Below are positions 59,186 to 62,369 of a stretch of 64,000 nucleotides of DNA, one piece after another (positions within the stretch are counted from its first letter, which is position 1; each line of letters begins with the position of its first letter). The notes beneath the pieces were generated by a model. The model worked only from the letters and a program-made list of their open reading frames with translations, was not told the DNA's origin and did not search any database. Made by a program: the position numbers and the translations under genes. Source of the DNA: Streptomyces sp. JH34 (GTDB lineage: Bacteria; Actinomycetota; Actinomycetes; Streptomycetales; Streptomycetaceae); assembly GCF_029428875.1 (NCBI RefSeq), contig NZ_JAJSOO010000001.1, forward strand, positions 5,862,501 to 5,926,500, read 5' to 3'.

Positions 59186-59214
59186 ACGTGTCCCCGCAGT
59201 CGAGGAGCAGCCAT

Positions 59215-59952
59215 ATGCCCGTCCGACGCACCCTCACCGCAGCCCTCGCCACCCTCACCGCCGCCGGCACACAGGACGTGATCCGCCCCGAGGGCCGTAA
59301 GGACACGCGAATCAACATCGGCCCAGACCAGAACCGGATCAGAGGAAAGAAGGTGGAGACCATCGCGGCCCAGGTCCCCGCCGCCGTAAGCGAACGCGGC
59401 ACGCTCCGGCTGGGCGCGAGCGCCGACGCCTCGCCACCGCTCGGCTTCTACGCGACCGACGACCGGATCCGGATCGGGAGCGAGACCGACCTCGTCACGC
59501 TGATCGTTGACACGCCGGGACTGATGCCCGAGTTCGAGCAGGTCTCCTGGGAGAACCTCTTCGGCGGCGTCGACAACTCGAAGTCCGACGGGGTCCTGTC
59601 CGACGTCACCGTGACCGAGGAGCGCAAGGAGAAGTACGACGTCGCGACGTACCGGCTCGACAACACCGCCTTCGAGGCCAGGAAGGGGTCCGGCTGGAAG
59701 GTGAGGGGCCCCGCCGACGTGGCGGGGAAGACCGTCTCCGTCGCCTCCGGCGCCGGTGACGGCCTCCAGGGGAAGATCGCCGCCACCACGAAGAGGGGCA
59801 GCGGTCCCGCGGAGGCGTACGGCGCCGCGATCGACCACATCATCCAGGACGGCTCGTACGCCGAGGTGCTGAAGCGGCGCTGGGGCCTGTCCGACGAGGC
59901 GGTCGAGAAGTCGGAGATCAACCCGCCCGGCCTGCCCAAGACCGAGAACTGA
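59215..59952 (+). pseudogene. Amino-acid binding-protein remnant, in-frame deletions
   Basis: A 245-residue frame from ATG 59215 (GAGGAGC upstream) resembles the SBP_bac_3 fold: RGTLRLGASADASPPLGFYATDD, TVTEERKEKYDVATYR and the C-terminal LSDEAVEKSEINPPGLPKT. The lipobox Cys is absent (AALATLTAAGTQ) and the segment between SVASG and KIAATTKRGSG has lost about 65 residues that the intact protein at 53987 has at that place (GTGAGTTF ... RLDVGFAFKKG). The ligand cleft is probably broken. Confidence 0.75.
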
Positions 59953-59967: not shown

Positions 59968-61044
59968 ATGCCCGCCACCAGGCCACTCCACCTCGCCGCC
60001 GAGATCGGCGGCCCGCCACGCTACGACGCGGGCTCCCACGTCGCGCTGGCCCGCCTCGCCGAAGGAGGAGCGCTCGACTTCGTCACCCTGAACGACTCCT
60101 TCGCACGCCCCGGCCCCGACGCGCTCGCCGTGCTGGCCCGTGTCGCACCCGCCACCACCCGGATCGGCCTCGTGCCGACCGTCACCACCACCCACACCGA
60201 GCCCTTCCACGTCTCCTCCGCCGTCGCCACCCTCGACTGGGTCAGCAAGGGCCGGGCCGGCTGGCAGGCCGACGTCTCGACGACCGAGGCCGAGGCCCGG
60301 CTGTTCGGCCGCCGCCCCGCAGCCCCCGTCTCCGCGCTGTGGCAGGAGGCCGGGGAGGTCGCCGACGCCGGAGCGCGGCTGTGGGACAGCTGGGAGGACG
60401 GCGCGGAGATCCGGGACGTGGCCACCGGCCGCTTCATCGACCGCGACAAGCTCCACTACGTCGACTTCGAGGGCAGCACCTTCTCCGTCCGCGGCCCGGC
60501 CATCGTGCCCCGGCCGCCGCAGGGCAGGCCCGTCACCGTCATCGACGCCACGAGCGGCCCGGCCCGGGAGCCCGCCGCACGGCACGCCGACGTCGTCCAC
60601 GTCCGGGCCACCTCACCGGAGCAGGCCGCCGCGCTCCGCGACGAACTGCGCCGCTCCGCCGCGGCCCACGGCCGGGACCCCGACGGCCTGCGGGTCCTGG
60701 CCGCCCTCACCGTCGACCTGGGTGACGCCGAGACCTCACCCGAACCCGGACTCGTGAGCGGGCCGCAACTCGCGGGGCGGGGAACCTACTTCCGCGGCGG
60801 CCCGGTGGACCTCGCCGAACTCATCACCCAGTGGCACCGGGGCGGGGCCGTGGACGGCTTCCACCTCACCCCCATCACTCCGCAGCGCGACCTGGAGAGG
60901 ATCGTCAACGGGACCGTGGCGCTGCTCCAGCACCGCAGCCTGTTCCGCACCTTCTACCCGGGCGGCACACTCCGTGAGCACCTCGGCCTCGGCCGCCCCG
61001 CCAACCGCTACACGCTCACGAGCACCTCAGGTGGGACGTCATGA
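59968..61044 (+). CDS. Luciferase-like (LLM) flavin monooxygenase 1
   Basis: The 358-residue protein is of the bacterial luciferase-like class: HLAAEIGGPPRYDAGSHVALARLAEGGALDFVTLND, VTTTHTEPFHVSSAVATLDWVSKGRAGWQ and HLTPITPQRDLERIV. Such enzymes use FMNH2 and oxygen on sulfonates, sulfides or aromatic amines. ATG 59968 with GAGAGG upstream; it overlaps LLM2 by 4 nt. Confidence 0.88.
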   Translation: MPATRPLHLAAEIGGPPRYDAGSHVALARLAEGGALDFVTLNDSFARPGPDALAVLARVAPATTRIGLVPTVTTTHTEPFHVSSAVATLDWVSKGRAGWQADVSTTEAEARLFGRRPAAPVSALWQEAGEVADAGARLWDSWEDGAEIRDVATGRFIDRDKLHYVDFEGSTFSVRGPAIVPRPPQGRPVTVIDATSGPAREPAARHADVVHVRATSPEQAAALRDELRRSAAAHGRDPDGLRVLAALTVDLGDAETSPEPGLVSGPQLAGRGTYFRGGPVDLAELITQWHRGGAVDGFHLTPITPQRDLERIVNGTVALLQHRSLFRTFYPGGTLREHLGLGRPANRYTLTSTSGGTS

Positions 61045-62369
61045 AGCAGATGCACCTCGCCGCCCACTTCCCGGGCGTCAACAACACCACCGTCTGGGCC
61101 GATCCCCGCTCGCGGAGCCAGATCGAGTTCAGTTCCTTCGAACACCTGGCCAGGACCGCGGAGCGGGGCAGGTTCGACTTCTTCTTCCTCGCCGAGGGGC
61201 TGCGGCTGCGTGAGCACGACGGCCGCATCCACGACCTCGACGTGGTGGGCCGTCCCGAGTCCCTCACCGTCCTCAACGCCCTGGCGGCCGTCACCGAACG
61301 CCTCGGGCTCGCCGCCACGGTCAACGCGACCTTCAACGAACCGTACGAACTCGCCCGCCGCCTCGCCACGCTCGACCACCTCAGCGCGGGCCGCGCCGCG
61401 TGGAACGTGGTGACCTCTTCGGACGCCTTCACCGGTGAGAACTTCCGCCGCGGCGGCTACCTCGACCGTGCCGACCTCCCCCGAGCTCTCGGCTCCGCTC
61501 GACCAGGGGGGACCCCCTACACCCGCGCGGCCGAGTTCGTCTCCACCGCACGTGAGCTGTGGGACTCCTGGACCCCCGACGGCACCTCCCGTCCGTTCGC
61601 GCACTCCGGGCAGCACTTCGAGATCTCCGGGGAGTTCACCGTCCCCCGCCCGCCCCAGGGCCACCCGGTCGTCATCCAGGCCGGGGACTCCGACGAGGGC
61701 CGCGAGTTCGCGGCGTCCACGGCCGACGTCGTCTTCACCCGGCACGGGACCCTGGAGGCGGGTCGGACCTTCTACGCCGACGTCAAGGGACGCCTCGCGA
61801 CGTACGGCAGGCAGCCGGGGGACCTCAAGATCATGCCCGGGGTCACCGTCGTCCTGGGCGACACGGACGCGGAGGCACAGCGGAACGCCGCCGCGATCCG
61901 CCGGCAGCAGGTCTCCCCGCAGAACGCGATCCTCGCCCTCGAACAGGTCTGGGGGCGCGACCTCTCCTCGTACGACCCCGACGGGCCGCTCCCCTCCGTC
62001 GACCCCGACCCCGGCTCGAATCTGGTCCAGGGCCGGGTCCGGGTCGCGGACCCGTCGGCCGTGGCCGCGAAATGGCGGGAGCTCTCCGAGGCCAAGGGAC
62101 TGTCCATCCGTCAGACGGTCATCGAGTCGACGGCACGGCAGTCCTTCATCGGCTCCCCCGAGACGGTGGCCGGGGAACTGGAGAAGTTCGTCGCCGAGGG
62201 CGCGGCCGACGGCTTCATCCTCGTACCGCACCTCACCCCGGTCGGCCTCGACGACTTCGTCGACCGGGTCGTCCCGCTCCTCCAGGAACGCGGATCCTTC
62301 CGCTCGGAATACGCCGGCTCCACGCTGAGGTCGCACCTCGGCCTGGCCGAGCCGGTATGGAAGGGTTGA
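61041..62369 (+). CDS. Luciferase-like (LLM, NtaA/SnaA type) flavin monooxygenase 2
   Basis: A 442-residue NtaA/SnaA/DszA-type monooxygenase: LAAHFPGVNNTTVWADPRSRSQIEFSSFEHLARTAERGRFDFFFLAEG, LDHLSAGRAAWNVVTSSDAF, PRPPQGHPVVIQAGDSDEGREFAA. The usual ENFRRGGYLDRADxYTRAAEFV motif is interrupted by a 14-residue in-frame insertion (LPRALGSARPGGTP, 61476-61517). ATG 61041 overlaps LLM1. Substrate unknown; the setting suggests organosulfur or amine compounds. Confidence 0.9.
   Translation: MKQMHLAAHFPGVNNTTVWADPRSRSQIEFSSFEHLARTAERGRFDFFFLAEGLRLREHDGRIHDLDVVGRPESLTVLNALAAVTERLGLAATVNATFNEPYELARRLATLDHLSAGRAAWNVVTSSDAFTGENFRRGGYLDRADLPRALGSARPGGTPYTRAAEFVSTARELWDSWTPDGTSRPFAHSGQHFEISGEFTVPRPPQGHPVVIQAGDSDEGREFAASTADVVFTRHGTLEAGRTFYADVKGRLATYGRQPGDLKIMPGVTVVLGDTDAEAQRNAAAIRRQQVSPQNAILALEQVWGRDLSSYDPDGPLPSVDPDPGSNLVQGRVRVADPSAVAAKWRELSEAKGLSIRQTVIESTARQSFIGSPETVAGELEKFVAEGAADGFILVPHLTPVGLDDFVDRVVPLLQERGSFRSEYAGSTLRSHLGLAEPVWKG
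61476..61517 (+). repeat. Small repeat-like in-frame insertion
   Basis: A 42-nt stretch starting CTCCCCCGAGCTCTCGGCTC and ending GACCAGGGGGGACCCCC sits inside the LLM2 reading frame. It has GC-rich, palindrome-like ends (CCCCC / GGGGG) and resembles short interspersed repeats I remember as common in Streptomyces intergenic DNA. Here its length keeps the frame, adding 14 residues. Confidence 0.6.

Follow-up and report, generated by a model that had tools for sequence, protein, structure and literature searches.

The window analyzed here, a stretch of 64,000 nucleotides from Streptomyces sp. JH34, holds a monooxygenase gene (LLM2) whose reading frame contains 42 nucleotides that look like a repeat. 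This raises the question of whether the segment belongs to the enzyme's own design or is foreign DNA that entered the gene and, if so, how it came to lie there. LLM2 scores 382.7 bits against TIGR03860, above the curated cutoff of 279.7, and thus belongs to that family. Its predicted fold is nearest to nitrilotriacetate monooxygenase 3sdo, 6ask (CmoJ/YtnJ), and BdsA. The neighboring gene LLM1 reaches 236.6 bits against the same model, below the cutoff, and has no insert at the position matching the LLM2 site. On the other side lies a DUF1684 gene that, judged by the spacing, probably shares a transcription unit with LLM2. The frame at window positions 59188 to 59952, 5′ of the LLM genes and presumably solute-binding-like, starts with an unusual N terminus and may have been misread or have suffered partial damage. 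Alleles are called filled when they carry the insert and empty when they do not, and A type and B type denote the two main length classes of the repeat.

59968..61044, + strand: LLM1, LLM-family gene 5′ of LLM2, overlapping the LLM2 start; PF00296
61041..62369, + strand: LLM2, the host gene, 442 codons; NtaA/DmoA-family FMN-dependent monooxygenase; TIGR03860, Pfam PF00296
61473..61475, + strand: left-edge GAC codon, directly before CGS-TAC (Arg-Tyr) in the nearest empty alleles
61476..61517, + strand: inserted repeat copy, A type; 14 codons LPRALGSARPGGTP, residues 146 to 159
61518..61520, + strand: right-edge TAC (Tyr) codon, kept by the A type; ATC instead in the B-type alleles L082 and L127
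62374..63180, + strand: DUF1684 gene, 3′ of LLM2; Pfam match (PF07920)

The letters at 61476 to 61517 are CTCCCCCGAGCTCTCGGCTCCGCTCGACCAGGGGGGACCCCC, read in frame between the codons for ...YLDRAD and YTRAAEF.... The preliminary description had placed a 42-nt repeat-like insertion in this reading frame; its coordinates are exact, and the frame is intact. It had also stated that exactly 14 residues are added. The 14 codons in fact stand in place of one Arg codon, and because 42 bases replace three, the net gain is 39 nt and 13 residues.

A dispersed repeat family

Further copies of the sequence were found in the same genome by three kinds of search. A 28-mer core, with up to three mismatches, occurs at three places including the window, and the reversed control pattern occurs at none. 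A 17-mer core, with up to one mismatch, occurs at six places; to judge by the flanks, two of these appear to be chance matches. A profile built from 39 copies gives five matches in the genome, four of them among the matches listed, with the window copy at E = 2.8e−10. A second copy in the genome, L003 (C1:972746), belongs to an open frame of 551 codons, where it is read as in the window (THPQGLGSARPGETPF), and it is possibly another in-frame insertion.

The 17-mer core, at the same tolerance, is present in 44 of 61 genomes, the source genome counted. The largest number per genome is 53 (25 + 28, in G040), G026 has 39, and G009 has 21, with the reversed control giving 0 to 2 matches per strand. 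The profile matched 21 of 296 genomes of the class, all of them in the genus of the window (1 of 114 genera); within the genus this corresponds to 21 of 28 genomes among the matches listed, and a per-genome profile count of 21 is to be read as at least 21. In G210, at least 13 copies among the matches listed have equal scores. The repeat is dispersed and multicopy, and it lies both between genes and in frame within unrelated genes. The earlier likening of the insert to the short intergenic repeats of Streptomyces is thus borne out as regards dispersal; as regards location it was too narrow, the family being found inside genes as well.

For comparison, 72 copies were read at 80 loci in a selection of genomes, most of them rich in copies. 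They fall mainly into two length classes, the B type, CTCCCCCACTCTCGGCTTCGCTCGAGCGGGGGGACCCCCAT, and the A type, which has three extra bases; counted with the last edge base, they measure 42 and 45 nt, respectively. The family consensus is approximately CTCCCCC-A[AG]-CTCTCGGCTTCGCTCGAGC-[A]GGGGGGACCCCC-AT. Neither the A-type nor the B-type consensus contains a stop codon in any of the six frames, a property that is helpful to an element in coding DNA and not remarkable, since 28% of random 42-mers of 72% GC share it. The edge profile leaves out 15 of the 72 copies, those inside a larger composite repeat, and anchors 52 left and 48 right edges.

Many intergenic copies (L201, L202, L204, L208, L210, L213, L214, L215, and L233) lie midway in a palindromic repeat of larger size, the arms of which, GTGCCGCTG...CAGCGGCAC, are inverted, and the small element may have landed in this older, larger repeat. 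In G095, contigs C5, C9, C16, C19, C27, and C30 carry copies no more than 75 bases from their starts, as if the assembly broke at the repeat.

Filled and empty alleles of LLM2

Homologues were collected with the filled protein as query, giving 110 loci (30 from genomes of the genus and 80 named), among which four sequences appear twice, once from each of two collections. The insert is present at the LLM2 codon in 10 of these, the window included, and the other 100 are empty and have one common length. The nearest empty alleles read GAC-CGS-TAC, and certain others have AGG or AGA as the Arg codon. The closest named relative, [Kitasatospora] papulosa NRRL B-16504 (L070), is empty and reads GAC-CGG-TAC; its gene is 94.1% identical in DNA to that of the window outside the insert and 98 and 99% identical in two windows spanning the site. 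The distant solved homologue YtnJ also lacks the inserted residues. The insert in the window gene is a derived gain, which answers the comparison of relatives with and without it that the preliminary description had proposed.

A-type inserts are found in L004, L005, L006, L071, and L075 and, in decayed form, in L079, L105, L181, and L027. Since TAC is retained, the visible A-type exchange is of 42 nt for 3 nt. B-type inserts are found in L082 and L127, in which the Tyr codon is replaced too. The two types share their left edge to the nucleotide. Twenty further homologue stretches were chosen mostly for odd match length or coverage; five are filled, two of these being sequences already counted, and this sample gives no rate. 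Among more distant homologues, L190 (38.6% identical) carries a near-consensus B-type copy and L183 (58% identical) a decayed insert, both at the matching position.

A tree was built without the insert columns from 116 distinct genes, obtained from 130 LLM2 rows after removal of six with partial or odd alignments (L184, L185, L187, L188, L192, and L193) and merging of eight identical ones. The filled state, present in 13 rows, needs 11 changes on this tree, of which nine are forced by well-supported branches, and the bootstraps also give 11. As few changes are needed in 44 of 500 label shuffles, so the clustering of the filled rows barely exceeds that of shuffled ones. L190 sits on a very long branch, and its place is uncertain. 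Several lineages thus carry an A-type or a B-type insert at the identical LLM2 codon, and we infer that insertion here took place independently at least three times, with the A type in LLM2, with the B type in LLM2, and with the B type in the homologue.

The same distribution could also have arisen from one ancient insertion in LLM2, with homologous recombination among Streptomyces later spreading it and causing its loss, in which case the recurrence would be mostly inheritance and allele exchange. The A-type inserts share derived bases (TCC, GA[AC]C), the inserts of L075 and L006 are identical in every letter and lie in immediate flanks that match for tens of bases, and filled L005 is the sister of empty L070 on the tree. 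Because the A types share variants and L075 equals L006, some of the scatter probably reflects recombination of a single old insertion. As an account of the whole pattern it is nevertheless unlikely. The B-type alleles differ in length and in right edge, and each matches the flanks of its own empty sister: L082 is 98 and 92% identical at the site to empty L017, compared with 90 and 82% to B-type L127, and the flanks of L127 match its empty sister L122, not L082. A B-type copy is also present in L190, and the pattern of A-type, B-type, and decayed inserts is repeated in a LacI-family gene (see below). No exchange tract around the insert is visible in 90-nt windows, at which scale shorter tracts could still exist.

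Other host genes and the mode of insertion

Twenty-six of the 72 copies, with that of the window, lie in frames that stay open for 60 codons or more to either side and have GC3 above 0.80, a rule applied without a null control and passed by three copies that lie in the larger intergenic repeat. The hosts include genes for phosphoglucose isomerase (pgi), a sigma-70-family factor, a LacI-family regulator, an acyl-CoA dehydrogenase, a solute-binding protein, a glycosyl hydrolase 18 protein, and a DUF6807 protein. Of the 10 host fragments scanned, seven have a Pfam match, which spans the insert in four (PGI, sigma-70 region 4, SBP_bac_6, and DUF6807). Across the host genes, several reading frames and both orientations of the repeat are used. 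Copies L230 and L255 lie near the C terminus of a gene, at the same site in two genomes; we take this gene to resemble 1-deoxyxylulose-5-phosphate synthase.

Empty sites for other host genes were obtained by orthologue searches and read as follows, the middle six bases being those replaced:

Sigma factor gene: CTG CGCTAC TTC; the L290 copy is 3 nt short (+33), and L291 is +36
Membrane protein gene (no Pfam match): ACC CGCAAG GCA
LacI-family gene: ACC CGCACG GTC; A-type insert L380, B-type insert L384, decayed inserts L381 and L385
Acyl-CoA dehydrogenase gene, in the orientation of the repeat: C CGCTCG CC; decayed insert L402

At most readable sites, full-length copies have 42 (B type) or 45 (A type) nt where the empty allele has 6, a net gain of 36 or 39 nt, and decayed copies show net gains of 27 to 39 nt. 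At five gene sites, the bases that are replaced start with CG in the nearest empty relatives, certain other relatives being different, and the six replaced bases fit CGNNNS at the five clearly readable sites. In pgi, a 43-nt variant accompanies the loss of about 7 nt, which fits the six-base rule loosely; that its net gain is a multiple of three likely results from selection on the frame. The exchange was read from coding pairs, and functional ones must keep frame, which bears on the apparently fixed loss of 6 nt.

The LacI-family gene shows the LLM2 pattern again, with A-type, B-type, and decayed inserts at one site, and here the A and B inserts share both edges. Its tree needs four changes, of which only two are forced, and this number is no lower than with shuffled labels. 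The decayed inserts of this gene (L381 and L385) and of the acyl-CoA dehydrogenase gene (L402) lie at codons that hold fresh inserts elsewhere, which suggests that inserts persist for a long time as protein segments.

Taken together, these data make it highly probable that the 42 nt are a Streptomyces-specific, nonautonomous short repeat, moved by a putative site-preferring activity and nearly neutral in LLM2. The putative activity would have a strong preference for its site, and the insertion would exchange six bases (CGNNNS) for 42 or 45. Such an insertion into coding DNA need not break the gene, because 42 and 45 are both divisible by three and the consensus is free of stops. The preliminary description had proposed that the segment may be mobile or recombining; the filled and empty sites and their recurrence, which are indirect evidence of movement, are consistent with this. 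Target duplication was found in none of the filled and empty pairs, in which about 6 nt are lost instead.

A search for a mobilizing enzyme that covered the Y1 transposases (PF01797) found no candidate. This domain has no match in the source genome (G000), in G026, or in G009 and is present in 14 of the 61 genomes. Movement by a RAYT, as for REPs, was rejected, since the domain is missing from the copy-rich genomes G026 and G009, though it is present in the copy-rich G040 (four matches) and G022 (two matches). Because PF01797 is absent from G000, G026, and G009, the copies in these three genomes are not accounted for by a RAYT unless it has been lost.

A more specific version of the preferred reading can be put forward tentatively, in that it seems to us somewhat more doubtful than not. 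It describes a Streptomyces minielement served by a dedicated, putative insertion activity, which would turn 6 bp into 42 or 45 bp at CGNNNS-like targets and would enter the same codons repeatedly in independent lineages, keeping the frame as a selfish element of a length fitted to coding DNA.

Some choice of target is argued for by the edges that are shared to the nucleotide. The recurrence could instead reflect survival, with insertion nearly random and few protein positions able to tolerate 12 or 13 extra residues. Sites do lie in loops or at domain junctions: that of LLM2 in a loop, that of the LacI-family protein after the helix-turn-helix match, and that of the acyl-CoA dehydrogenase between the middle and C-terminal matches. 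A tolerant loop would, however, let the insertion point drift by several codons, and the edges are identical to the nucleotide on the left in LLM2 and on both sides in the LacI-family gene. The CG at the start of the replaced bases also points away from random entry, even if five gene sites are few and certain relatives differ. We consider survival by itself an improbable explanation.

The placement in LLM2 comes from a structure model of moderate quality (mean pLDDT, 68), in which residues 126 to 156 have pLDDT below 50 and lie between a strand (119 to 124) and a helix (159 to 175). According to this model, the insert would sit in the strand-helix loop and be tolerated there. The dN/dS ratios of filled pairs are 0.20 (L004 and L005), 0.15 (L006 and L071), and 0.55 (L105 and L181, with few changes); three filled-empty pairs give 0.15 to 0.17, and two empty pairs give 0.15 and 0.49. 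LLM2 with the insert is therefore mostly under purifying selection. L005, the filled allele of G029, has an internal TAG stop at codon 198. Since LLM2 is mostly constrained, tolerated baggage is the favored view, and the insert would be kept as nearly neutral baggage, which may affect the enzyme slightly.

The insert might also be a signal kept by selection, a regulatory hairpin or something like a terminator, whose location in coding DNA is accidental. The family consensus sequences do fold somewhat better than shuffles (z = −1.5, −1.5, and −2.2). The window copy folds like shuffled sequence, as RNA (z = 0.20 alone, −0.40 with flanks, and 1.37 on the opposite strand) and as DNA (z = 0.33, no better than chance). 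A strong hairpin in this copy is thus not supported, and the term GC-palindromic, applied to it at first, fits the window copy only loosely. Nothing in Rfam matched positions 61300 to 61700, up to E = 1, which speaks against a known RNA family. With the presence of the insert being patchy as well, such a signal is very improbable. A native monooxygenase loop of variable length is still harder to credit, since the same DNA occurs at unrelated places in the genome and the genus and the 100 empty loci are all of one length, even though the family members L183, L194, and L195 vary in length nearby.

Comparison with known short repeats

Among the titles listed, outside subscription papers, none is an account of this repeat family, a result that falls short of proof of novelty. 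In the part of PMC1590033 that was consulted, Streptomyces is mentioned in a reference alone. The words of the repeat core do not occur in the literature searched; for the encoded peptides and GGGGGTCCCCC, three papers contain the word, none of which, judged by title, concerns Streptomyces repeats.

In-frame palindromic protein repeats are best known from rickettsiae. Streptomyces is high in GC, free-living, and genetically tractable, with filled and empty alleles in many species, and would allow tests of how in-frame repeats move and how they act on the proteins they enter. Related inserts at one spot across lineages suggest a small mobile element that edits proteins, and they would call for caution, in that certain "insertions" in Streptomyces proteins are repeat DNA and not adapted loops.

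The Rickettsia palindromic elements are, in the sections that describe them, short repeats found in frame in unrelated protein genes, many of them conserved, and also between genes (PMC2229807, PMC10969869), with a length of 105 to 146 bp (PMC2229807). By these descriptions they are the nearest in behavior to the Streptomyces repeat, which likewise lies in frame in unrelated protein genes. Unlike them, it measures 42 to 45 nt, is GC-rich, and recurs at identical codons, and unlike the rickettsial hosts, its matches among 296 genomes of the class fall in the genus of the window only. As regards the long stem-loop that is a trait of the rickettsial elements, folding of the Streptomyces consensus gives z of −1.5 to −2.2 and that of the window copy 0.33.

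Cod-2 of Corynebacterium diphtheriae, as the relevant passage presents it, is a very small genic repeat in various coding sequences and in different frames, and its table entry of 32 and 43(39) is taken as length and members (PMC2267715). By this description, it is the nearest in size and phylum.

REPs are introduced in their source as short, palindromic, dispersed repeats, certain of which lie in coding regions (PMC3733652). The Streptomyces consensus, read by eye, has neither the GTAG nor the CGTC tag on either strand, unlike the REPs so tagged, and, unlike for RAYT-borne REPs, the source genome and two copy-rich genomes contain no Y1 transposase. Bacterial MITEs, in the accounts as excerpted, are multicopy and presumably nonautonomous, can fuse in frame with genes (PMC10969869), and measure 70 to 300 bp (PMC3733652). 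Compared with them, the Streptomyces repeat is smaller and shows a net loss of target bases in place of a target duplication. Because its size differs and it has no tag, we do not file it under the Rickettsia palindromic elements or the REPs, and we read it as a new, genus-specific, protein-coding palindromic repeat.
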